Shown piece by piece: positions 38,409-57,575 of a stretch of 64,000 nt of DNA. The DNA comes from an uncultured Monoglobus sp. (GTDB taxonomy: Bacteria > Bacillota > Clostridia > Monoglobales > Monoglobaceae). Within the stretch, counting starts at the first letter, position 1. Each line of letters begins with the position of its first letter. Below the pieces are notes generated by a model. The model made no database searches, was not told the DNA's origin, and saw nothing but the letters and a program-made list of their open reading frames with translations. The stretch covers positions 124,001-188,000 of the forward strand of contig CANRGH010000002.1 in assembly GCA_947630135.1 (NCBI GenBank), given 5' to 3'. The translations under genes were made by a program, and so were the position numbers.

Positions 38409-41400
38409 ATGAAGAATTTAATTGTTAAAAACAAGCGTTGGCAGGCTCTTTTTTTGTGCCTTGCCATGATCGCGGCAACGCTTTCGGGCGTTTGCGTGGT
38501 GCCCGTTAACGCTGAACCGACCGACGCGGGAAACGCGGCGAGCATAGGCGGGAACGAGTATCCGACCCTGCAGGCGGCGATTACCGCGGTGGACGGCGCT
38601 GCCGATCAGACTATAACTCTTTTGAAAGACGTATCAGAAAATTTGACATCCGAGGGCAAGAGCTATACTCTGGATATGCAGGGCCACAAGATCACACCGG
38701 CTGACGCGGCAACAACGATTTACACGATCAACGGCGGAACCGTGACGATCAAGAGCACCGGCGAGACCAAAGGAACCCTTACCGGCGCGGAATCGGCGGC
38801 AAACGGCGGAGCGATCAACGCGAGCGGCGGCGCGGTTATAACGCTTGATAATATAGACATAACTCAAAACAGCGCGCCTCAGGGCGGCGGCATATATCTT
38901 GCGGGCTCGACGCTCAGCATGAGCAATACCTACGTCAACGAAAACACCGCGAACGGAAATTTTGAAGATATGGGCGGCGGCGGTGGCGCTGTCGCGGCGG
39001 TTGAGAGCAGTGCTGTGACCTTCAATAAAGGCTGTCAGATCAATAATAATAAAGCGGCCTCCGAAAGCGTGTGCGGAACGGCCCTGTATTTTAACGCGTC
39101 CAAGCTTAATCATGCGAGTGATGGTATGACATACATGGACGAGTTAATTCAGGTGCATGGAAACAGCGCTTTAGAGAGCGGCGAGAATACCGAGTATTCG
39201 GCCGCGCTGTTCGCTTGCAACGAAAGCGATATTGAACCCTTTATGTTGGACATTTCCGAAAATGTCAATAACCACGGCGTTGCCGCGGCATACATATATA
39301 AATCAAAATTTATAGCGATAAACTGTAAGTTTAATTATAATCAATCGGGAAGCAGCACGCTGTATATTCACAGAGACTATAATAATGGAACTAATGTTAA
39401 ATTACAATACTGCGATATCAACAACAACAAGTCCAAAAATCACGGAACCGTATATGTGGAGCGCACTACTGTCACTTTTGATGATTGTTACATCGAAAAA
39501 AACGAGTCTGTGCTCGAAGAAAGTGAATCGGTAAGCGAAACCGATGATTTGATACTTGCTCCCGGCGCTTTGGAGCTTTATTCCGACAATGTGTCATATC
39601 CGGCGGTCGCATACATAGAAGGCGGCACGGTCATAACCGGCAATACCGGCCACAAAGTGGGCGGCATAGGTATTGTGGGGATAGACAATATCAGCGCGTA
39701 CGGTCAATATAGTGCCATATTAATGGATACCAATTCCGCAGTGTACGGCAACACTGCCACATACAAAGCCAAAAGCGGCAACCCGCAGGAATTTGATGCC
39801 AATGATCTGTGGATACCGAAATATACCGCAAAGCTTGATATTCCTGTCGCTTCCGCCATGACGGACGAACTGTATGAAAATAACTTCACCGGATATAAAT
39901 GGTATGATTATTCGGGTATTTCTTTCTCGGAACCTATTTCAAGGGATCAACTTTGGAACGGGAGTTACAACAGCGTGTTAGGCCTTACCGCAGATGTCGC
40001 TGCGGCGCAGGCAAACGACACGGATTACAACAGATTATCAAGAGCTATTGAACACGCGGGAAGCTCGGAAATTAAACTTCTGCGCGATGTCAGCGAAAAT
40101 ATAACGACGAATAACAAGAACTACACCTTGGATATGCAGGGCCACACGATCACGCCGAAAGATCCGAGAACAACGATCTTCACGATAAACGCCGGAACCG
40201 TGACGATAAAGAGTACAAGCGAGACCAAAGGAATTCTCACCGGCGCCAACGCGTCCGCCAACGGTAGTGCGATCTTCGTCGGCGGCGGTGCGAAACTGAC
40301 ACTCGATAACATAAGCATAACCGAAAACAACGCAACAAACGGCGGCAGCGCATCTATGAGCGGAACTCCTATATATGCGGAAGAAAGCGCGCTCGATCTG
40401 AACAAAGTCAATGTTTCAAATAATCAGAGCAAAAGCGGCGTGGGAGCGGTATATATAAATAAGTCTGATTTTACCGCGACCGACTGCGAATTTAAAGATA
40501 ATAAATCGAGCGCAAGCACCGTTTATTTGGTAAAAGGCGGAGGTTACGGCAGCTATTTACCGGCCAAAAAGGCGGTTTTAACAAGATGCGTTATTTCGGG
40601 TAACACATCTAAAAGATACGGAACGGTGTATGCCGACGATAATGATATTAATCTGAATCAATGCCGTATTGAAAATAACACCAATAAGAATGTAAGCACG
40701 GAAGATTTTGCCGCGGGCGCTTTGCAGTTGCACAGCAATGACATGTTTAGCGCGACACACGCGGCGTTAAGTGGAACCGTTATTACAAATAATACCGGAT
40801 ATAGAACCGGAGGTATAGCGGTTGAATACAGAAAGTCAAGTGATTTTTCAGACGCGAAGTATGTGTCTTTGGCATTGGATGACAGCTGCGCGGTATACAA
40901 CAACACAGCCGAATATCTCGATGATCCCAATGATGATTATGTCGGATACGCCAATGATTTGTGGTTGTCGCTGCAAATGGCCGATCTTAGCGTGCTGGAC
41001 GCTTCGACAATGCAGGACAGCGATAATCCCGAAGCGGTATTCAAGGACTTTAAGTGGATAGATAACTTGGGCGGCGCTTATGGAAATTTGGAAAAAGACA
41101 CATTTTCAAATGATAATCCGCGGGTGAAAAAGGTATTTTGTCTGACGGCCGGCATACCGACCCGTGAGGTGGCTGAAATTGACGGAACAACTTATAATAA
41201 CATCGCCGACGCTATTCAGAATCTTGGCGGCGACGATAAGACGATAAAGCTGGTTCAAGGCGAAAATGACGACATGAGTAAGACCGTTGTCGAAAATGTG
41301 CAGATCGAAAAAGACGTGGAGATCGACCTTAACGGACGCAAGCTTATGCCTGTTAATACGGACAGTTACGCGTTTGTAATCAGTTCCGGCACTTTGACAT

Positions 41401-44400
41401 TGAGCAATATGGGAACTACGGAAAGCAAAGTTTATTCAATAAAGAATAGCGGTGTTCTGAATATCGGTTCCGAAGGATCGGCTATAAAGGTGAAGGAGAT
41501 CAGTCAGGAGTCTTCGGGCACGACCAATGTTAACAAAGGCGCGGAGATCGACACTATCAATAATTCGTCCGCCGATGTTAACATAACGGACGGCGCCGTA
41601 GTTAAAAATCTTATCCATAGCGGCTCCGGAAAAATTGGACTTTCGGAAGAGAGCGTTTCCGGCGGAAGAGCCGTTCTTTCGGGAAATGTTACCGTGAATA
41701 ATGTCACATTGGCAAAAGACAGCTATTTAACCGTCGGCAGTAATGATCTTGGTCTTACCGACAACATGAACGTAACGCTTGACGGCGAGGTGCTTGCTCA
41801 GCTTAACAGCGACAGTGAAGAGCCGATTAGCGTGATGTTGATCGATGCAGGCGGAAAGACTGTCAATGATAATATTCTCCGTAAGATCAAGATAAATAAT
41901 GCTAAGTCTAATGTTATTGTCACAATGGATGAAAGTGGCAATGTTATCGCTCAAAAGCTTATTCAAAAAGGTGTATTTGTTGGCGGTAGTGGAGCCAATG
42001 ACGGCAACGATGGAACAACGGCAGACAGTCCGGTTCTGACTTTTGCGAAAGCGTTAGAGAAATTTAAGGCAATAGAAAACAAAACAGCCGATGATAAGAT
42101 TTACGTTTTGGGCACGATCGAAGTAACATCAAGTGACACATGGGATATGGGAGATCTTAAAGATTATCCGATTATGCGCGATCCTATGTTCAAGAGCGGA
42201 CCAATGGTTAAAGTCAGCGGATCGGGCGCGGCTCTTACGCTGTCGAACATAGTTCTTGACGGATACAAAGACCAGCGCGTTGAGGCAGAAGGCCCGATAG
42301 TTGAAGTGACGAACGGAGCTAAGCTTGTAATAAACGACGGCACTGTGCTGAGAAACAATGTAAATAACGACAATTATTATTCATTTGGAGGCGCGGTGTT
42401 TGCCGATAACACCGAGGTTGTAATGAACGGCGGTGAGATAAGCAATAACACAGCTTGGCTCGGCGGCGGCGTTGCGGTCAAAGGAGATAACGGCAAATTT
42501 ACCCTTAAAAACGGCACAATTACCGGAAACAGCACTTCGAAATGGGATAAAATCAATGGCGGCGGCGGAATCGCGATAATAATGGGTGCAAGCGCCTTTA
42601 TGTACGGCGGAACCGTTTCATACAATACCGGCGGACAAGGCGGTGGAATTATAGTCGGAGGTACAACCGCTGATCCCGACACTCAGGAAGGCACTGAACC
42701 CGAGCGTTTTGAAATGCACGGAGGAACTGTGAGCGGCAATATATCCGAGCATAACGGCGGAGGCATCTATGTGCAGGCCACCACCGAGGCGGATATATAT
42801 GAAGGTGCAATCAAAGATAATATTGCGTTGGCAGAAGAGGACTATGCCAGATTTAGCGGCGGCGGCTTTTATGTAAACGGCCAGCGCATGGTGGAAGCAG
42901 GGTCTTTTGAAACCGGAGTATTGCGTTTCCATAACAGCACAGAAATCACAAACAACACCTCGGGATCAAAGACCAATGCTTATATTTGGGGCGGAGGTTA
43001 TGCCGGATGTTCCACGTCGACAGCGTATATTTATACCACTAACGGTACTTCGATTCACGGAAATAAAGCGTGTGAAACTGACGGTACGGAACATGTCAGC
43101 GATTTTTATTCGACAACCGAGCCAATGCCAGGAGTAGGCAGTGATATTATACATACAACTTTGAAATACGATATTTCCGGTTATATGTATGACGGAACTC
43201 CTTATAATTGGACGGACGCGGATAAAAAAGAGAGTGTTGATTATTCCGGTCATATAAAGGCAGGCGGAACGATAAGCTTATACACGGAATCGGCGCCCGC
43301 TGAATCCGCCGAGCCCGCCAAAATAATAATCAGTGGAAACAAGGGCTTAAAATACGGCGGAGGCATAGGAAACAACGGTACGGTTTACTTCGGTACGCCA
43401 GATACTACGGCGGAGATCAAGGGTACCAAAAAGCTGACGGGCCGTGACTGGACCGATGCCGACAGCTTTGAGATCACGCTTGAGGAAGTATCGACCGTCC
43501 ATGAAGGATATGAAGCCGTTCCAGACAAAATCGAAACGAGAAAAGTTGAGGTCAAAAAACCCGGAATGGGTGACACAGCGGCGTTTAACTTCGGATCGAT
43601 CATTTATACCGAGCCTTATTCTCACACTTATAAGGTCAAGGAAACGAGTAAGAGCGAAAACGGAATAACAGTTGACACTTCGGTTTACACCGTTACAATA
43701 ATTGTAACAAAAGACGCCGACGGAAATCTTATCTATGAGCAGCTGACCACCAATGATGAAGGAAAGAATGACATTGAATTTAACAACACATACGAGGCAT
43801 CGGGCTCCTTAACTCTTGAGGCGCAAAAGAACCTCACCGGCAGCAAGCTCGTATACGGCGAGTTTGAATTTGAGGTCAAGGAAGGCGAAGACACAGTAGC
43901 CAAGGGAACAAATGACGCGGACGGAAAAATCGTGTTTGACGAGATCAAATACACCGCCGCGGGCGATCATACCTACACTGTTTCCGAGGTAAACAAGGGA
44001 TTGCCGGGCTATACTTACGATGAAACGAAATACACGGTCAATGTGACCGTGACCGACAAAGGTGATGGAACATTCGACTGCACCAAAACTATCACCAAAG
44101 ACGGCGAGCCGGTTGACGGGATGACCTTTGAAAACAGCTATAATTCGGAAGGCACGGGCTTAATTTCGGGAACAAAGGTTCTTGAGGGCCGCGATATTAA
44201 GGCGAACGAATTCAGCTTTAAGCTGTCGGAAGTGAACAGAGACAGCGACGGAAACGAGACGGCAGAAGAGATAGAGACCGTCAAAAATGACGCGGAGGGA
44301 AAATTCACATTCCCCGAAATCAAATACGCCTTGGAGGATGCGGGAGTCCACACCTACACAGTTGTTGAGGTTATACCCGAGGCGAAAGAGCCGGGAATTA

Positions 44401-47400
44401 CCTATGACACCGACGAGTACACGGTTGTTGTAAATGTCACGGATGACGGAGAAGGAAAACTAACAAGCAAAATAATCTCTATAACCAAAAACGGAGCGAC
44501 AGCGAGCGAGATCAAGTTTACCAATAAATATGGTTCAGCGGGAACGCTCGTGCTTGACGGAACAAAGACGCTTGAGGGCAATAAGCTTTCGGCGGGCGAG
44601 TTCAGCTTTACGCTGACTGACGTGACCGAAGCAGAGCCGAAGGTTCTTGAGACCGTGACAAACGACGCGGACGGAAAATTCACGTTTAGCGGAATTGAGT
44701 ATACGACCGCCGACATAGGAAAACCGCGCAAGTATACTATATCCGAGGTTAAGCCCGAGACGGCGCTGCCCGGAATTTCATACGACAAAGACGTTTACAC
44801 GGTTGAAGTGACCGCCAAGGACAACGGAGAAGGCGGACTGACTTTTGAGAAAAAGATAACTGATAACGGCGCGCCCGCGAATAATATAGCTTTCACAAAT
44901 ATCTATAGGGCGGCCAACACACTTGTTATCAACGGTAAAAAGGTATTGAACGGACGCGCGCTTGATACGGGCGAGTTCGAGTTCACGCTGACCGAGACGA
45001 CCAAGGACAAAGTTGATCCCGTTTCAAAAACAGCGAAAAATCTTGCGGACGGAACCTTCGTGTTTGACGGAATTGCTTATAATCTGGATGACGCGGGAAA
45101 GACGTTCACCTATGAGGTAAAGGAAAATAAGGGATCCGCGGCCGGAGTTGAGTATTCCGAGGAAGTATACAATGTTGAGGTACAAGTTACGGACAACCAC
45201 AATGGAATACTGAACATTGCCGAGACGATAACCAAGAACGGCGAGGCAGCCGACGCGATAGTGTTCACCAACACTTACGCGGCGAGCGGAAGCCTTGAGC
45301 TTAGCGGTGAAAAGAAGATCGACGGCGGAACAGCGGCGGCCGGAGACTTCAGCTTCACGCTGACAGATATAAGCGGAGCCGAGCCGAATGTGCTCGGAAC
45401 GGTTCAAAACGGCGCTGACGGAAAGTTTAAGTTCGACGCGATCAGCTATAGCATTGAGGACGTCGGCAAGGAGCATGTTTATATCGTTTCCGAGGTCAAG
45501 GGCGAGAAGCCGGGCTACACATATTCCGAGGAAGTGTACACGGTCAACGTGATCGTTACCGACAACGGCGACGGAACCCTTAATGTCGAGCCGATAATTA
45601 CCAAGAACGGCGAGATCGCCGAAGATATTGTGTTCACCAACAGCTACGCGGCGAGCGGTAGCCTTGAGCTTGCGGCCCAAAAGACGCTTACCGGAGGAGA
45701 GCTCAGGCACGGCGAGTTTGAGTTCGTTGTTACCGAGGCGGTGGCAAGCGGCGGACAGACCGAGACAAACACAGTCGCGACGGGAACAAATGACGCGGAC
45801 GGAAATATTAAGTTCACTCCCATTGATTATACCGCCGCGGGCAATCACACCTACACTGTTTCGGAGAAAAACACCGAGATGCCGGGATATACATACGACA
45901 GCACGGAGTACACGGTCAATGTGACCGTGACCGACAACGGTGACGGAACTTTGAAGGTTGAGGCGGCAACCGCCAAAGGCGGCGAGCCGGCTGAAAAAAT
46001 GACCTTTGCCAACACTTATACGACGCTGGGAACAGGCTCAATTTCCGGAACAAAGGTCCTCGAGGGCCGCGCTCTTAAGGCGGATGAGTTCAGCTTTAAG
46101 CTGGCGGAGATAATCAGAGACGGCGACGGAACCGAAACGGCCAAGCCTATCGGCGAGCCCGTTAAAAACGGCGCGGATGGAAAATTCACATTCCCCGAAA
46201 TCAATTACGTCTTGGAGGATGTGGGCGTCCACACCTACACGGTCGTTGAGGTTATACCCGAGGCGAAAGAGCCGGGAATTATATATGACACCGACGAGTA
46301 CACGGTTGTCGTAAACGTCACGGATAACGGCGACGGAACGCTGAGCAGCGGCATAACTGCTATATCCGAAAACGGAATTCCGGCGAATAATATCACATTC
46401 ACGAACAAGTATGAGCCGGAAGACACGCTTGTGCTTGAGGGAACAAAGACGCTTTCGGGCGCGAAGCTTTCGGCGGGCGAGTTCAGCTTTACGCTGACCG
46501 ACGCGAGCGAAGCAGAGCCGAAGGTTCTTGAGACCGTGACAAACGACGATAAGGGCGGCTTCGCGTTCAGCGGAATAAAATACACCGCGGACGACATAGG
46601 AAAGACGCATACATACAAGATAGAGGAGGTTAAGCCCGAGACGGCGCTGCCGGGAATAACGTATTCCGAGAATGTCTACACGGTCAAGGTGACGGTTGTG
46701 GACAACGGAAACGGCGGACTGAAATTCACCAAGGATATAACCAAAGACGGAGCGCCTGCGGATAATATAGCCTTCACGAATATCTATAAGGCTGACAACA
46801 CGCTTGTTATCAACGGCAAGAAGGTACTGAATGGACGCGCGCTTGATACAGGCGAATTCAGCTTCACGCTGACCGAGACGACCGAGGGCGTGGAAAATCC
46901 CGTTCCCAAAACAGTGACAAATCATGCAGACGGAACATTCGCGTTTGAGGGAATTGCATATGATCTGGAAGACGTGGGAAAGACGTTTACCTATGAGGTA
47001 AAGGAAAACAAGGGAGACGCGGCCGGAGTTGAGTATTCCGAGGAAGTATACAATGTTGAGGTAAGCGTCACGGACAACCACGACGGAACGCTGGGTATTG
47101 CCGAAACGATAACCGATAAGAACGGCGAGAAGAAGGACGCGATAGTGTTCACCAACACTTACGCGGCGAGCGGAAGCCTTGAACTCAACGGCACGAAGGT
47201 ACTGAACGGCCGCAATTTGACAAATAGCGAGTTCAGCTTCAAACTGTCGGAAGTAGTGATAGGCGAGGGCGGAACCGAGACAGCCAATGAGATCGAGACC
47301 GCAACAAACGACGCGGACGGAAACATCAAGTTCAAGCCGATCAATTACAATTCGGTAGGCGTTCACACCTACACGATAGTCGAGTTGGACGGCGGAGAGC

Positions 47401-50400
47401 CCGGAGTTACCTATGACACCGACGAGTACACGGTTGTAGTAAACGTTACGGACAACGGAAATGGAAAGCTCGTATGCTCGGAGATAATCACCAAAAACGG
47501 CACGGCAACGGATAAGATCGCGTTCACGAACAGCTACGGAGCGAAAAATTCTCTCGCGCTCGAAGGCTCAAAGACGCTGAACGGCGCCGAGCTTAAATAC
47601 GGAGAGTTCAGCTTTGCGGTCAAGGAAAACGGAACCGAGGTCGCTAAGGGAACAAATGACGCGGACGGAAAAATCGTGTTTGACGAGATCAAATACACCG
47701 CCGCGGGCGAGCACACCTACACTGTTTCCGAGGAAAACACCGAAATGCCGGGATATACTTACGACAGTACGGAGTACACGGTTAAAGTGACCGTTACCGA
47801 TAACGGCGACGGAACCTTGAAGATCGACAAGGCGGTCACCAAAGGCGGCGAGCCGGTCGACAAGATTGAGTTTGTCAACACCTACAAGGCGGGCGATATC
47901 CGCGCGCTTGAGGGCACAAAGGTTCTGAACGGCCGCGAGCTTAAGGCGGGCGAGTTCAGCTTTAAGCTGTCGGAGATAGTTAAGGACGCGAGCGGAACCG
48001 AGACGGCAAAAGAGATCGAGACCGTTAAAAACGGCGCGGATGATACGGCAGGTAAGTTTAAGTTTAGCGAGATCGCGTATACTTTGGCGGATGTGGGAGT
48101 TCACACCTACACGATAATCGAGATGATACCCGAGGAGAAGGTGCCCGGAATTACCTATGACACCGACGAGTACACGGTTGTCGTAAATGTCACGGATAAA
48201 GGCGACGGAACGTTGAGCAGCGAAATAACAGCGATTTCCGAAAACGGCGTGCCTAAGGACAGGATCGAGTTTGTGAACAACTATGACGCGGAGAACACGA
48301 TCACGATCAGAGCGACAAAGGTTCTGACCGGACGCGAGCTCGCGGACGGCGAGTTCAGCTTTGTCCTGACCGATAAGACCGGGGCCGAGCCCAAGGAAAT
48401 CGGAAAAGCAGTAAACGACAAGGACGGAAATATTGCGTTCGACACGATAAGATACACCTTGGCGGATGTGGGTGAGCATACCTACACGATATCCGAGGTT
48501 AAGGGAGACGCGGAATATGTGACTTATTCCGATAAGGAGTTTGAAGTCAAAGTGAACGTTTCCGACAAGGGCGACGGAACCCTGAACGTTACGGCGGAAT
48601 ATCCCGAGGGCGGAGCGGTATTTGAAAACGCGTTCCTGCCTCCGACGGAGGCGCCTACGGCGGAGCCCACCGCGGAACCGACAGCCGAGCCTACGGTTGA
48701 GCCTACGGCGGAACCCACGGCAGAGCCTACGGAAGAACCGACGACGGAGCCCACGGTTGAACCAACGCTTGAACCTACTGTGGAACCGACTGCCGAGCCT
48801 ACGCTTGAGCCGACAATAGAACCTACGGCGGAGCCCACGATCGAGCCCACGACGGAGCCTACGGAAGAGCCTACGGCGGCGCCGACTTACAGGCTTATAT
48901 ACGACGCGAACGGCGGATCCGGAACGGTACCGACAGATGATTACAATTACGAAAGCGGCAACACCGCGCCGCTTATGGACGGCAATAAACTCAACAGATT
49001 GGGCGCAACGTTTATCGGCTGGAGCCTTACGCCGGTGAAAGATCTTATTACCGGCGCGGACGAAGAAGCGGCGGCAGGAATTGTGGATAGCGTCACCTTC
49101 GCGGACAGCGATATTACGGTATACGCCGTATGGGCGATTGACGAAGTCGGCGGAACCACCGGAGCTTCGCCCACAGCGGCGCCCGGAACGACGCCCGCTC
49201 CCGACGCTGACGTGACATATCCGAACAGCGTTCCGGATTACAGAGAGGTTATTTATGACCTTAACTATGCCACGAACGCTGAACCGCCCGTTGACCCTCA
49301 CGAATATTCAAAGGGCGAGACGGTGACGGTTACAAGCGAGACGCCCTCAAGAGCGGGATATACCTTCCTTGGCTGGGCGACCGATGCGGACGCTAAGACG
49401 CCCGATTATAAGGCGAAGGATACCTTCATTATTCCCGACACCGGTGAAATTCTTTACGCCGTATGGTCAGTAAGGAGCAGCGGCGGAAGCAGCGGAGGCG
49501 GCGGAGGCAGCGGCTGGCTGCCGTCAGCGACCGCCAAGCCCGCGTCAACGCCTAAGCCGACAACGGCTCCCGCGCCCACGGAAGCGCCGACAATGAAGCC
49601 CGAGCCGGAGGCGACTCCGAGCGGCGGAGGCAGCGGCGGTTCCGGCGACGGCACCGAAACGGCAGGCATGGAGGGAACGAAGTACAACGTGCCGCAGCTT
49701 AACCGCGAGGACCACTACGCGTACATTATCGGTTATCCCGAAGGCGATGTGAGACCCGAAAATTACATCGCGCGCGACGAGGTTGCGACTATATTCTTCA
49801 GAATGCTGACCGACGCGTCGAGAGCGCAGAACTGGACGCAAAGCAACGCCTACAGCGATGTTCCGGCGGATCTGTGGTCAAACAACGCGGTATCGACTAT
49901 GAGCAACTGCGGAATACTTACCGGATATCCCGACGGAAGCTTTATGCCGACGGCCTGCATCACAAGAGCCGAGTTTGCGGCGATCGCGGCAAGGTTTGAC
50001 AGCAGCGGCGCTGAGGGCGTGGACGTGTTCAGCGACATCAGCGGCCACTGGGCGGAGGCCTACATCAAGAAAGCCGCGGCGATCGGCTTCATAAACGGCT
50101 ATGAAGACGGAACCTTCAAACCCGATCAGTATATCACAAGAGCCGAGACTATGACCTTGGTGAACAACATACTGAACAGACACGTAAGCGCCGACGGCAT
50201 GCTTGACGGAATGATAACGTTCAGCGACAACAACGATCCGGAGAAGTGGTACTACACGGCGGTTCAGGAGGCGACCAACTCGCACTACTACAGAAGAGTC
50301 GGCGACACATTGTTCGAGAACTGGTCAGCGCTCAGAGACCCGCGTGATTGGGTAGAGCTTGAGAAAGAATGGTCCACGGCCGCAAGCGCCGGCGTCGAAG

Positions 50401-50420
50401 CTTCGGTATACGGCGGATAA
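38409..50420 (+). CDS. Giant (4003 aa) surface adhesin: signal peptide, beta-helix-like passenger, about 14 pilin/isopeptide (Spy0128/FctA-like) repeats, PT-rich stalk, two InlB-B-type repeats, three SLH domains
   Basis: GxKxLxGRxLxxGEFSFxLxE...GxHTYTxxE...YxVxVxVTDNGDGxL...FxNxY repeats; (EPTA)n stalk; LIYDANGGSGTVP and VIYDLNYATNAEP; SLH motifs such as ITRAEFAAIAARF and INGYEDGTFKPDQYITRAE. Confidence 0.93.
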   Translation: MKNLIVKNKRWQALFLCLAMIAATLSGVCVVPVNAEPTDAGNAASIGGNEYPTLQAAITAVDGAADQTITLLKDVSENLTSEGKSYTLDMQGHKITPADAATTIYTINGGTVTIKSTGETKGTLTGAESAANGGAINASGGAVITLDNIDITQNSAPQGGGIYLAGSTLSMSNTYVNENTANGNFEDMGGGGGAVAAVESSAVTFNKGCQINNNKAASESVCGTALYFNASKLNHASDGMTYMDELIQVHGNSALESGENTEYSAALFACNESDIEPFMLDISENVNNHGVAAAYIYKSKFIAINCKFNYNQSGSSTLYIHRDYNNGTNVKLQYCDINNNKSKNHGTVYVERTTVTFDDCYIEKNESVLEESESVSETDDLILAPGALELYSDNVSYPAVAYIEGGTVITGNTGHKVGGIGIVGIDNISAYGQYSAILMDTNSAVYGNTATYKAKSGNPQEFDANDLWIPKYTAKLDIPVASAMTDELYENNFTGYKWYDYSGISFSEPISRDQLWNGSYNSVLGLTADVAAAQANDTDYNRLSRAIEHAGSSEIKLLRDVSENITTNNKNYTLDMQGHTITPKDPRTTIFTINAGTVTIKSTSETKGILTGANASANGSAIFVGGGAKLTLDNISITENNATNGGSASMSGTPIYAEESALDLNKVNVSNNQSKSGVGAVYINKSDFTATDCEFKDNKSSASTVYLVKGGGYGSYLPAKKAVLTRCVISGNTSKRYGTVYADDNDINLNQCRIENNTNKNVSTEDFAAGALQLHSNDMFSATHAALSGTVITNNTGYRTGGIAVEYRKSSDFSDAKYVSLALDDSCAVYNNTAEYLDDPNDDYVGYANDLWLSLQMADLSVLDASTMQDSDNPEAVFKDFKWIDNLGGAYGNLEKDTFSNDNPRVKKVFCLTAGIPTREVAEIDGTTYNNIADAIQNLGGDDKTIKLVQGENDDMSKTVVENVQIEKDVEIDLNGRKLMPVNTDSYAFVISSGTLTLSNMGTTESKVYSIKNSGVLNIGSEGSAIKVKEISQESSGTTNVNKGAEIDTINNSSADVNITDGAVVKNLIHSGSGKIGLSEESVSGGRAVLSGNVTVNNVTLAKDSYLTVGSNDLGLTDNMNVTLDGEVLAQLNSDSEEPISVMLIDAGGKTVNDNILRKIKINNAKSNVIVTMDESGNVIAQKLIQKGVFVGGSGANDGNDGTTADSPVLTFAKALEKFKAIENKTADDKIYVLGTIEVTSSDTWDMGDLKDYPIMRDPMFKSGPMVKVSGSGAALTLSNIVLDGYKDQRVEAEGPIVEVTNGAKLVINDGTVLRNNVNNDNYYSFGGAVFADNTEVVMNGGEISNNTAWLGGGVAVKGDNGKFTLKNGTITGNSTSKWDKINGGGGIAIIMGASAFMYGGTVSYNTGGQGGGIIVGGTTADPDTQEGTEPERFEMHGGTVSGNISEHNGGGIYVQATTEADIYEGAIKDNIALAEEDYARFSGGGFYVNGQRMVEAGSFETGVLRFHNSTEITNNTSGSKTNAYIWGGGYAGCSTSTAYIYTTNGTSIHGNKACETDGTEHVSDFYSTTEPMPGVGSDIIHTTLKYDISGYMYDGTPYNWTDADKKESVDYSGHIKAGGTISLYTESAPAESAEPAKIIISGNKGLKYGGGIGNNGTVYFGTPDTTAEIKGTKKLTGRDWTDADSFEITLEEVSTVHEGYEAVPDKIETRKVEVKKPGMGDTAAFNFGSIIYTEPYSHTYKVKETSKSENGITVDTSVYTVTIIVTKDADGNLIYEQLTTNDEGKNDIEFNNTYEASGSLTLEAQKNLTGSKLVYGEFEFEVKEGEDTVAKGTNDADGKIVFDEIKYTAAGDHTYTVSEVNKGLPGYTYDETKYTVNVTVTDKGDGTFDCTKTITKDGEPVDGMTFENSYNSEGTGLISGTKVLEGRDIKANEFSFKLSEVNRDSDGNETAEEIETVKNDAEGKFTFPEIKYALEDAGVHTYTVVEVIPEAKEPGITYDTDEYTVVVNVTDDGEGKLTSKIISITKNGATASEIKFTNKYGSAGTLVLDGTKTLEGNKLSAGEFSFTLTDVTEAEPKVLETVTNDADGKFTFSGIEYTTADIGKPRKYTISEVKPETALPGISYDKDVYTVEVTAKDNGEGGLTFEKKITDNGAPANNIAFTNIYRAANTLVINGKKVLNGRALDTGEFEFTLTETTKDKVDPVSKTAKNLADGTFVFDGIAYNLDDAGKTFTYEVKENKGSAAGVEYSEEVYNVEVQVTDNHNGILNIAETITKNGEAADAIVFTNTYAASGSLELSGEKKIDGGTAAAGDFSFTLTDISGAEPNVLGTVQNGADGKFKFDAISYSIEDVGKEHVYIVSEVKGEKPGYTYSEEVYTVNVIVTDNGDGTLNVEPIITKNGEIAEDIVFTNSYAASGSLELAAQKTLTGGELRHGEFEFVVTEAVASGGQTETNTVATGTNDADGNIKFTPIDYTAAGNHTYTVSEKNTEMPGYTYDSTEYTVNVTVTDNGDGTLKVEAATAKGGEPAEKMTFANTYTTLGTGSISGTKVLEGRALKADEFSFKLAEIIRDGDGTETAKPIGEPVKNGADGKFTFPEINYVLEDVGVHTYTVVEVIPEAKEPGIIYDTDEYTVVVNVTDNGDGTLSSGITAISENGIPANNITFTNKYEPEDTLVLEGTKTLSGAKLSAGEFSFTLTDASEAEPKVLETVTNDDKGGFAFSGIKYTADDIGKTHTYKIEEVKPETALPGITYSENVYTVKVTVVDNGNGGLKFTKDITKDGAPADNIAFTNIYKADNTLVINGKKVLNGRALDTGEFSFTLTETTEGVENPVPKTVTNHADGTFAFEGIAYDLEDVGKTFTYEVKENKGDAAGVEYSEEVYNVEVSVTDNHDGTLGIAETITDKNGEKKDAIVFTNTYAASGSLELNGTKVLNGRNLTNSEFSFKLSEVVIGEGGTETANEIETATNDADGNIKFKPINYNSVGVHTYTIVELDGGEPGVTYDTDEYTVVVNVTDNGNGKLVCSEIITKNGTATDKIAFTNSYGAKNSLALEGSKTLNGAELKYGEFSFAVKENGTEVAKGTNDADGKIVFDEIKYTAAGEHTYTVSEENTEMPGYTYDSTEYTVKVTVTDNGDGTLKIDKAVTKGGEPVDKIEFVNTYKAGDIRALEGTKVLNGRELKAGEFSFKLSEIVKDASGTETAKEIETVKNGADDTAGKFKFSEIAYTLADVGVHTYTIIEMIPEEKVPGITYDTDEYTVVVNVTDKGDGTLSSEITAISENGVPKDRIEFVNNYDAENTITIRATKVLTGRELADGEFSFVLTDKTGAEPKEIGKAVNDKDGNIAFDTIRYTLADVGEHTYTISEVKGDAEYVTYSDKEFEVKVNVSDKGDGTLNVTAEYPEGGAVFENAFLPPTEAPTAEPTAEPTAEPTVEPTAEPTAEPTEEPTTEPTVEPTLEPTVEPTAEPTLEPTIEPTAEPTIEPTTEPTEEPTAAPTYRLIYDANGGSGTVPTDDYNYESGNTAPLMDGNKLNRLGATFIGWSLTPVKDLITGADEEAAAGIVDSVTFADSDITVYAVWAIDEVGGTTGASPTAAPGTTPAPDADVTYPNSVPDYREVIYDLNYATNAEPPVDPHEYSKGETVTVTSETPSRAGYTFLGWATDADAKTPDYKAKDTFIIPDTGEILYAVWSVRSSGGSSGGGGGSGWLPSATAKPASTPKPTTAPAPTEAPTMKPEPEATPSGGGSGGSGDGTETAGMEGTKYNVPQLNREDHYAYIIGYPEGDVRPENYIARDEVATIFFRMLTDASRAQNWTQSNAYSDVPADLWSNNAVSTMSNCGILTGYPDGSFMPTACITRAEFAAIAARFDSSGAEGVDVFSDISGHWAEAYIKKAAAIGFINGYEDGTFKPDQYITRAETMTLVNNILNRHVSADGMLDGMITFSDNNDPEKWYYTAVQEATNSHYYRRVGDTLFENWSALRDPRDWVELEKEWSTAASAGVEASVYGG
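43420..48630 (+). repeat. Tandem array of about 14 isopeptide-type domain repeats (about 330-380 bp each)
   Basis: Counted by the GTKxLxGR / GEFSFTL / FTNTY pattern in the translation. Confidence 0.85.
48633..48888 (+). repeat. 12-bp minisatellite coding (EPTA/EPTV/EPTL/EPTI)n stalk
   Basis: PTEAPTAEPTAEPTAEPTVEPTAEPTAEPTEEPTTEPTVEPTLEPT... Confidence 0.9.
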
Positions 50421-53743: not shown

Positions 53744-54081
53744 GACGAGGATAACTGATGATTGCGCGCGTAATGCGTGAGGAAAGTCCGAGCTCCATAG
53801 GGCAGAGCGCAAGCTAACGGCTTGTGGAGGCGACTCCAAGGATAGTGCAACAGAAATAAACCGCAGTTATTTTTAATAGCTGTAAGGGTGGAAAGGCGAG
53901 GCAAGAGCTCACCCGGCGGTCTGGCGACTTACCGCTGATGTAAACCCCGCTCGGAGCAACACCTGAATCGAAGATTAAGCCGGCCCGGCGCCTTCGGAGA
54001 TTGGTGGCTTGAGGCGCGCGGTGACGCGCGTCCCAGATAGATAATCATCTGATACAGAACTCGGCTTATGTTATGCTCGTC
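53744..54081 (+). ncRNA. rnpB: RNase P RNA
   Basis: GAGGAAAGTCCGAGCTCC, AAGGGTGGAAAGGCGAGGCAAGAGCTCACC, 3' ACAGAACTCGGCTTATG. P1 GACGAGgATAAC / GTTATgCTCGTC sets the ends. Confidence 0.95.
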
Positions 54082-54121
54082 ACAAAACAGGACAGCCCCA
54101 ATCGGGGCTGTTCTGTTTTGT
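54082..54121 (+). terminator. Intrinsic terminator of rnpB
   Basis: ACAAAACAGgACAGCCCC-aat-cGGGGCTGTtCTGTTTTGTT. Confidence 0.9.
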
Positions 54122-55267: not shown

Positions 55268-57346
55268 TTACAAACTCATTTCGGCGGGTTCGGCCAGTGG
55301 TTTAGCGCTGTCCATGTCGCTCCAAAGCATGACTTTTATGTTTGTGTTTTGCAAGTTTGTACTGAAAAACCAGACCTCGTCCCAAGCATAATAATTCTGC
55401 ATTTCGATCAGCGCGCCGTTTTTGTTGTATACCGCCAATATTACTTGAGCTTCAAAATCATCATAGTTATTCACTTTGGCTGTGACAAGATAATCCGAAA
55501 CCTCCGTTATCTCAATCGACGGCGCATTCGGGTCTGCGGTCGGCTTTGCCGTTGGTACGGGTGTCGGCCTTTGAGTGGGCGTCGGCTTTTGCGTAGGTGT
55601 CGGCGTGGGCTTTGCCGTCGGCGTCGGCGTGGGTTTTGCGGTCGGTGTCGGAGTCGGTTTTGTTTCACCCGGCATAGACGAGTTATAATGAATAGTGGCA
55701 TTGAGAAGCGAGTCATTACCATAATCAACCGTTACTTTTTCCCAATTTTCCTTGCTTCCGCCATAATATACATCGGTTAAACTTTCACATCCATAAAATG
55801 CGTCTATGTCTATGCTTGTCACACTGCTTGGGATAAATATATCTTTTAAGTTTTTGCAATCTGAAAACGTGTACATATTAATCTTTTCAATTGCGTTAGG
55901 TATTATTATGGTTTTTAAATTTTCGCAGTAGGCAAACACCTCATAGCCAATGTATTCAAGATTTTTCGGCAGATTTATATTTTCAAGATTTTTGCAATTG
56001 TAAAAGGCGTTATCGCTGATATAATTAACACTATCGGTAATCGTATATTCCAATATATTTTTCCCTTCGGGAAATTTAATAAGTATCGTTTTATTTTTAT
56101 CAAATAAAGCACCGTTTTCCGAACTGTAATTTTTGTTATTGGTTTCAACGTTTATTTCTTTAAGATCACTGCATCTATAAAATGCCTGATCGCCTATGTA
56201 ATTGACACTGCTTGGTACATTTATAACAGACAATTTTTCGCAGGCTTCAAAAGCGTTGAAACCTAAATATGTAACGCTTGAAGGTATATTAATATTATTA
56301 AGTTGACTACATTCAGCAAACGCACGATTTCCGATATATTGCAAACCATTTGATAATGAAACACTTTTAAGGTTAATACATTGTTCGAATGCTGCGTTTC
56401 CAATATGAGTTACACTGCTTGGTATTACTACTGATTGTAAATTTGCACCGCTGCCGCTGTATGTCGGTCCATATCTTTCAACAATAAATATGGAATCAGC
56501 AATAACGGTTGTTCCTGATTTTATTGTTAAATTACTCATATTAAAGTTTTTGTTTGCGGCTAATAAATATTTCCCTAAATATAGCAGATCGTTTGACCAA
56601 TTGTTTGAATTATTATAAAATCCTGTATTATAGAAAGCGTCACTGCCAATGCTTTTTATGTTATCAGAGAGCTTTATTGAATTAAGAGAAGAACAACGGA
56701 GAAACGAAGAACTGCCTATTGAAACTATGCTGTTTGGCATATTGATTCCGGTTAGTTTATCACACGCAAAAAAGGCCATTCCCGCAATAGTTTTTGTTCC
56801 ATCTTTAACGGCATATGTTCCGCTTATAGTATCCTTTGCTTTAAGCAAACATTTATTTATATATAGAACATCATTTTCCCAGTTATTTGGGTCATTCTCA
56901 TAGGCAGTTTCTGAAAATGAATGTGAAGATATTGCTTCGATATTATTTGACATCGTTATATTTGATAATTTTGTGCAATAGTCAAACGCATAATCTCCAA
57001 CAATCTGTACCGTATCAGGAATTATTACTGTTGTGAGATTTTCACAATTTTGAAATGCGGCGGTACTTATTAATGTTAGTCCGCTGTTAATTACCACTTT
57101 TTTAATATCATTTTTGTAAATATCCCAAGGATATTCATACCAATCTTCACCCAGTTCTCCTTTCATCTCGCCATTACCGCTGATCATTAAAGTTCCGTCT
57201 TGATCAAATGTCCATTTTACATTATCACCTTTTCCTTGCGCGCCGCAGGTTCCGCTGTCTATTATCGTTGCGGCGGATGCGGGGGTGAATGTGAGCATTG
57301 CGCAAAGCATAGTCAATACCAGCCCCAAAATTAAAATCCTTTTCAT
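55268..57346 (-). CDS. Secreted leucine-rich-repeat (BspA/LRR_5-like) protein with PTPTP linker and C-terminal module
   Basis: Signal peptide MKRILILGLVLTMLCAMLTFTPASA; repeats such as VVIPSSVTHIGNAAFEQCINLKSVSLSNGLQYIGNRAFAECSQL; linker PTPTPTAKPTPTPTAKP. Confidence 0.92.
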   Translation of the reverse strand: MKRILILGLVLTMLCAMLTFTPASAATIIDSGTCGAQGKGDNVKWTFDQDGTLMISGNGEMKGELGEDWYEYPWDIYKNDIKKVVINSGLTLISTAAFQNCENLTTVIIPDTVQIVGDYAFDYCTKLSNITMSNNIEAISSHSFSETAYENDPNNWENDVLYINKCLLKAKDTISGTYAVKDGTKTIAGMAFFACDKLTGINMPNSIVSIGSSSFLRCSSLNSIKLSDNIKSIGSDAFYNTGFYNNSNNWSNDLLYLGKYLLAANKNFNMSNLTIKSGTTVIADSIFIVERYGPTYSGSGANLQSVVIPSSVTHIGNAAFEQCINLKSVSLSNGLQYIGNRAFAECSQLNNINIPSSVTYLGFNAFEACEKLSVINVPSSVNYIGDQAFYRCSDLKEINVETNNKNYSSENGALFDKNKTILIKFPEGKNILEYTITDSVNYISDNAFYNCKNLENINLPKNLEYIGYEVFAYCENLKTIIIPNAIEKINMYTFSDCKNLKDIFIPSSVTSIDIDAFYGCESLTDVYYGGSKENWEKVTVDYGNDSLLNATIHYNSSMPGETKPTPTPTAKPTPTPTAKPTPTPTQKPTPTQRPTPVPTAKPTADPNAPSIEITEVSDYLVTAKVNNYDDFEAQVILAVYNKNGALIEMQNYYAWDEVWFFSTNLQNTNIKVMLWSDMDSAKPLAEPAEMSL

Positions 57347-57349
57347 AAA

Positions 57350-57541
57350 AATGTACCTCCTTGAAAAATAAAAAGTGTTTAGCCTCAATCGAAGCTAAAC
57401 ACGAAAAACACATAGCTCCGATTGCTGCCACACAAATTTCGATTCCATATAATAGTATGCGAAAATAGAGCTTGTATTTTTGCCTAAAGGCATAAAAATA
57501 CATACTATAAATATGAAATCAATATTAAATTCATGTGGCAA
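57350..57541 (-). promoter_or_regulatory. Riboswitch-like structured leader with antiterminator/terminator
   Basis: Minus strand: P1 UGCCACAUGAAUUU/AAAUUUGUGUGGCA, P2 AUAGUAUG/CAUACUAU, P3 UAUUUU-UGCC/GGCA-AAAAUA, antiterminator CAAUCGGAGCUA/UAGCUUCGAUUG, terminator GUGUUUAGCUUC/GAGGCUAAACAC + U-tract. Confidence 0.65.
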
Positions 57542-57546
57542 GGTTA

Positions 57547-57575
57547 TTCTATCACAATATCTCAAAAAGGTCAAT
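57547..57575 (-). promoter_or_regulatory. Sigma-A promoter of the LRR protein leader
   Basis: Minus strand TTGACC-N17-TAGAAT. Confidence 0.75.

Follow-up and report, generated by a model that had tools for sequence, protein, structure and literature searches.

The BspA-type LRR gene of the window (the whole 64,000-nt stretch of uncultured Monoglobus DNA analysed here) was found to be preceded, on the minus strand at 57574-57364, by a structured leader of about 165 nt together with a promoter and a terminator. As far as sequence alone can tell, this leader is not a one-off and is one member of a widespread RNA family. We consider it probable that the leader is a cis-acting riboswitch-type transcription attenuator in a large family outside Rfam, with a small molecule as the likeliest signal; there are no ligand-binding or switching data.

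Architecture of the leader

The regulated gene encodes a 692-aa exported protein whose first 450 aa match LRR_5 (E 3.6e-64). The elements of the locus are as follows, from 5' to 3'.

57574-57546, minus strand: promoter, with -35 box TTGACC (57574-57569), 17-nt spacer and -10 box TAGAAT (57551-57546)
57540-57527, minus strand: P1 5' strand, UGCCACAUGAAUUU, pairing with 57439-57426
57520-57501, minus strand: P2 5' strand, about 20 nt, from the sequence and family covariation
57500-57475, minus strand: capped P3 hairpin, UAUUUUUAUGCC-UUUA-GGCAAAAAUA, strands 57500-57489/57484-57475
57481-57467, minus strand: pseudoknot strand, AAAAAUACAAGCUCU, with the tail as its partner and an A-run common to P3
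57460-57441, minus strand: P2 3' strand, about 20 nt, from the sequence and family covariation
57439-57426, minus strand: P1 3' strand, AAAUUUGUGUGGCA, completing a P1 of 14 bp including two G-U pairs
57424-57413, minus strand: antiterminator 5' strand, CAAUCGGAGCUA, pairing over 12 bp with UAGCUUCGAUUG
57419-57404, minus strand: tail strand, GGAGCUAUGUGUUUUU, the pseudoknot partner, its 5' part doubling as antiterminator strand
57402-57364, minus strand: intrinsic terminator, with a 12-bp stem (57402-57391/57386-57375), GAUU loop and U-rich tract
57397-57386, minus strand: antiterminator 3' strand, UAGCUUCGAUUG, which shares positions with the terminator 5' strand
57361-57356, minus strand: Shine-Dalgarno sequence AGGAGG, ahead of the LRR gene
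57346-55268, minus strand: the LRR gene, with its ATG at 57346

In the window copy the -10 box and P1 are separated by 5 nt, a CUC-containing linker lies between P3 and the P2 3' strand, CAAUCGGAGCUAUGUGUUUUUCG lies between the P1 3' strand and the terminator, and the terminator stem is followed by UUUUUAUUUUU. Most of this layout had been anticipated. The original prediction proposed a TTGACC-N17-TAGAAT promoter, a 14-bp P1 with two G-U pairs, a P3 capped by UUUA, a 12-bp terminator just before AGGAGG and, exclusive with that terminator, a 12-bp antiterminator joining 57424-57413 to 57397-57386, and each was borne out. The helix that it called P2 is present, but its strands are about 20 nt long and the proposed length of 8 bp was wrong. 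Likewise, the proposed pseudoknot between AGCUCU and GGAGCU does pair, but these 6 bp are only the end of a longer helix, which in the window copy extends beyond CUC/GAG to AAAAAUAC/GUGUUUUU. Elsewhere in the window, 38409-50420(+) is taken up by one open reading frame, 4003 aa long.

Distribution of the family

By blastn, the window's genome and many relatives proved to contain more copies. With a pattern of the conserved tail we recovered 76 stretches in named genomes, nearly all of them gut metagenome-assembled Clostridia, the hosts being uncultured Monoglobus, Oscillospiraceae and Ruminococcaceae. A covariance model built from 12 distant copies scored the window copy at E 6e-25 and detected 24 copies in the window's genome at E <0.01, tandem pairs included. 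Matches to the model were found in 100 of 391 sampled Clostridia genomes (about a quarter), representing at least 20 families. All 289 genomes searched outside Clostridia but within the phylum lacked a match, which also provides a specificity control for the model.

Some genes are preceded by leaders in tandem, each of which has a terminator of its own. Examples lie on contigs C1 (47029/47245), C13 (48193/48427) and C30 (17412/17616) of genome G000; tandem copies were also seen at loci L109, L168, L174 and L181. This arrangement resembles that of some tandem riboswitches.

Plasmids contained no matches to the leader family, and the viral contigs searched gave 0 and 1 match; origin from a phage, plasmid or mobile element was thus not supported. 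A copy at 2076-2231 of MT835845.1 (L223), a record from human faeces named 'Bacteriophage sp.', lies before a lipoprotein gene and adjoins Clp ATPase and YicC-like genes. The open reading frames of this record read as bacterial housekeeping genes, and it looks like a fragment of a bacterial chromosome rather than a phage, so that the family is present in human gut material too.

Covariation of the helices

We aligned 109 copies and scored 40 modelled pairs in P1, P2, P3 and the terminator. Over these pairs 96.0% of cells held standard pairs, compared with 81.5% after shuffling, and two-sided changes were found in 37 of the 40 (0/500 shuffles), amounting to 508 cells versus 119 in the shuffled alignments. 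Sliding the partner by 1-3 columns collapsed this signal. All 12 modelled pairs of P1 covary (97.9% of cells paired), as do the top 10 pairs of P2 (10/10) and the nine of the terminator (9/9; 99.3% paired), and P3 is 93% paired across the family. Because the alignment was fitted to the covariance model, it is biased towards the modelled pairs, and the shuffle statistics take no account of relatedness among copies.

The pseudoknot and antiterminator are absent from the covariance model and were assessed separately. The family pseudoknot helix joins an A-run, YRY and GCUC to GAGC, YRY and a U-run (AAAAAYRY..GCUC with GAGC..YRYUUUUU). Pairing in it reaches 97.1%, and two-sided cells number 53 versus 20 in shuffles. 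Its helix 1 is 99.0% paired with three covarying positions; an anchor-based count independent of the covariance model agreed on the pseudoknot. For the antiterminator the figures are 91.9% pairing and 37 two-sided cells, versus 16.5 in shuffles. In slid controls pairing of these two elements fell to 14-63%. Thus P1, P2, the terminator, the antiterminator and the pseudoknot, whose covariation in homologues had been named as the check on the regulatory proposal, are all conserved with covariation. Given its E-value, the 24 genomic copies and covariation in 37 of 40 pairs, the window leader lies far beyond chance.

Conservation of unpaired letters is thin. An AUA in the P1-P2 junction is present in 97 of 108 copies, and the other conserved unpaired letters are RRCAA after P1 and part of the P3-P2 linker. 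This thinness counts against a small-molecule pocket, and with so few invariant unpaired letters a protein factor remains possible. The same attenuator might be governed by a protein or another RNA binding in trans to the P1-P2-P3 hairpin or the tail, without any small molecule. The conserved letters do lie mostly in the exchanging strands, with no obvious pocket, and exported proteins forming a regulon could be served by a regulator of their own; however, all the alternative pairings that a self-contained switch needs are present in the RNA alone, and we regard a trans factor as unlikely, though not to be set aside.

Promoter and downstream genes

A -10 box with no more than one mismatch precedes P1 in 91 of 104 copies, at a gap of 5 nt in 67 of them, and the promoter spacer is 17 nt in 75 of the 104. 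Since the -10 box sits at a fixed distance from P1, P1 is very probably where the RNA starts, a site predicted without RNA-seq data.

Of the 117 copies that could be evaluated, 71 have the start codon of a good open reading frame no more than 60 nt from the terminator. About one-fifth of copies have no obvious gene directly behind them, which counts against a cis-acting attenuator. LRR_5 was detected in 25 of 83 downstream proteins and the copper-amine-oxidase-N1 (stalk) domain in 8; the remaining targets include CHAP, SLH, dockerin, RCC1 and AbrB/MazE-like proteins. A simple hydropathy rule assigned a signal-peptide-like N-terminus to 44 of 50 long targets, compared with 51 of 283 other open reading frames, and the targets are predicted to be mainly exported proteins. 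When positions were compared by eye, about 9 of the 18 LRR_5 genes of the window's genome were preceded by a copy.

Leaders also stand before genes for small DNA-binding proteins that resemble AbrB, MazE or MraZ and have a zinc-ribbon-like CxxC pair (L194, L205, L206 and L110), and further AbrB/MazE/MraZ-like targets were seen at L052, L054, L057, L076 and L077. At L052, L054 and L057 this gene is followed by one for a short putative DNA-binding protein. Such targets are a possible second regulatory layer.

The terminated RNA of about 165 nt might also be a trans-acting sRNA whose position before genes is secondary. Nearly all copies have their own promoter and terminator, and some are solitary, about eight of these with a complement of the P1 3' strand and tail after the terminator. 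We nevertheless give this explanation little credence: most copies are immediately followed by a gene that is on the same strand and has a ribosome-binding site, the bias in targets is strong, and the antiterminator, needless for an sRNA, is conserved.

In the solitary copies concerned (L176:1501-1660(-), L085:4200-4349(+), L080:3835-3989(-), L181, L191, L135, L092 and L139), the complement of the copy's own P1 3' strand and tail lies 20-60 nt past the terminator and is clearest in L176, L085 and L080 (for example, TACATGGCTCTATTGTCGCCAAACAAA in L176). It could form a larger hairpin or be a degenerate inverted copy. Being limited to about eight solitary copies, it was rejected as a feature of the family as a whole.

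A model for switching

In silico, the leader has three conserved alternatives with common strands. The A-run can pair with the 5' U-run of P3 or with the tail; the tail with the A-run and CUC or with the 5' half of the terminator; and the terminator 5' half with the tail or with the terminator 3' half. The pseudoknot is thus predicted to compete both with P3 and with the antiterminator. Transcription would start at P1, and the long P1-P2-P3 hairpin could form. In the inferred gene-on state, P3 would be formed and the tail left free to make the antiterminator with the terminator 5' half, allowing readthrough. In the inferred gene-off state, the P1-P2 domain would capture the tail through AAAAAYRY..GCUC; with the tail held in the pseudoknot the antiterminator could not form, and the terminator would fold. 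A signal stabilising either fold would set the outcome. That the pseudoknot is the off state is itself an inference. The strict U5/A5/U5 conservation would allow a U.A-U triple, which is speculation, no structure having been modelled.

For the window copy, ViennaRNA gave helix energies of -14.9 kcal/mol for the antiterminator, -16.1 kcal/mol for the terminator and -15.3 kcal/mol for the pseudoknot duplex, so that these three are calculated to be nearly isoenergetic; P3 was calculated at -5.0 kcal/mol. Such near-equal helices would suit an attenuator without a ligand, in which balanced folds, together with polymerase speed, temperature or ions, give fixed or noisy readthrough and cell-to-cell variation of the surface. 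A fixed attenuator, however, would have no use for a P1-P2-P3 domain that covaries and a long-range pseudoknot, both retained in at least 20 families, and we think this improbable.

Comparison with known RNAs

Searches with Rfam 15 (4227 models) at gathering thresholds, covering the window and 16 diverse loci, gave no family match at the element, and when single copies and 7 further loci were scanned at a permissive E-value, only chance matches appeared there. The T-box model RF00230 was not matched. The only Rfam match in the window was a class A RNase P RNA at 53746-54083(+). That the leader is of no recognised class, as first suggested, therefore held for the window copy and for more than 20 others. 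The proposed logic of a transcriptional riboswitch is likewise supported by the lack of an Rfam match, the covarying helices and the position of the leader before genes and behind a conserved promoter.

The leader shows two features of a riboswitch: a structured domain that is conserved with covariation and lies in the 5' UTRs of genes of various kinds and, in silico only, an expression platform with mutually exclusive states. The leader appears to work like a terminator-type riboswitch, although membership of that group cannot be claimed without shown ligand binding. Terminator-type riboswitches (c-di-GMP-I/II, ZTP, preQ1 and SAM) similarly have their own promoter, a structured domain and an exclusive antiterminator and terminator, and they too sometimes occur in many or tandem copies per genome. 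The leader differs from them in matching no Rfam model, in a P1 that does not overlap the antiterminator, and in the capture of its switch strand by a pseudoknot in competition with P3. SAM-II and preQ1-II are pseudoknot riboswitches with a U/A-rich long-range helix. The tail of the leader similarly folds back on an A-run beside a U-run, which makes a U.A-U triple conceivable, whereas its strand order, long P1-P2 hairpin and terminator platform are different. T-box and protein-controlled attenuators also choose between antiterminator and terminator before genes. The leader shares this choice; unlike them, it is unmatched in Rfam and its targets are exported proteins rather than amino-acid genes.

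The Rfam sRNAs Gut-1, Clostridiales-2 and skipping-rope have similar gut Clostridia hosts, with no match within the element. Gut-1, described from human gut metagenomes, was found on both strands beside a leader copy at L166:1795-1977. It was rejected as a relative, being there a separate neighbouring RNA of GUGAAAU repeats.

Literature searches for a Monoglobus riboswitch, a BspA/LRR riboswitch and orphan riboswitches found no description of the family. Nor is it described in PMC8040213, PMC11109978 or PMC7266159, a statement that does not extend to supplementary motif lists, notably that of PMC8040213. We conclude that this RNA class is apparently undescribed; its logic is of a known type, and its exchange of strands by way of a pseudoknot is unusual.

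Nature of the signal

In the absence of binding data, the signal is most likely a small molecule reporting the general physiological state, because about 24 copies occur per genome, mostly before exported proteins. A small molecule is our first choice since the switch is contained within the RNA itself and its targets are many and unlinked.

In other Clostridia, c-di-GMP riboswitches occur in many copies per genome before surface proteins. The abundance of the leader ahead of surface proteins would fit a c-di-GMP sensor that has diverged past the Rfam models. We find this hardly tenable, however: the c-di-GMP-I/II models (RF01051 and RF01786) were unmatched, at E 1e-10 a GGDEF match was missing from 11 of 40 carrier genomes, and GGDEF matches were as frequent in carriers (29/40) as in non-carriers (29/40). 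The GGDEF counts disfavour c-di-GMP as a general ligand.

A more far-reaching possibility, which we hold only tentatively and as somewhat less likely than not, is a new, widespread orphan riboswitch class in which a common intracellular signal other than c-di-GMP, acting through about two dozen leaders per genome, sets which proteins gut Clostridia export and display on their surface by way of the pseudoknot, with the A-run exchanged between two U-runs, possibly in a U.A-U triple. The family defines a regulon of LRR/BspA, stalk-domain, S-layer-domain, amidase and AbrB-like genes, and its leaders are ready-made reporters for finding the signal. That so abundant and strongly covarying a switch RNA has no place in Rfam suggests an unknown signal by which many gut Clostridia control their surface.
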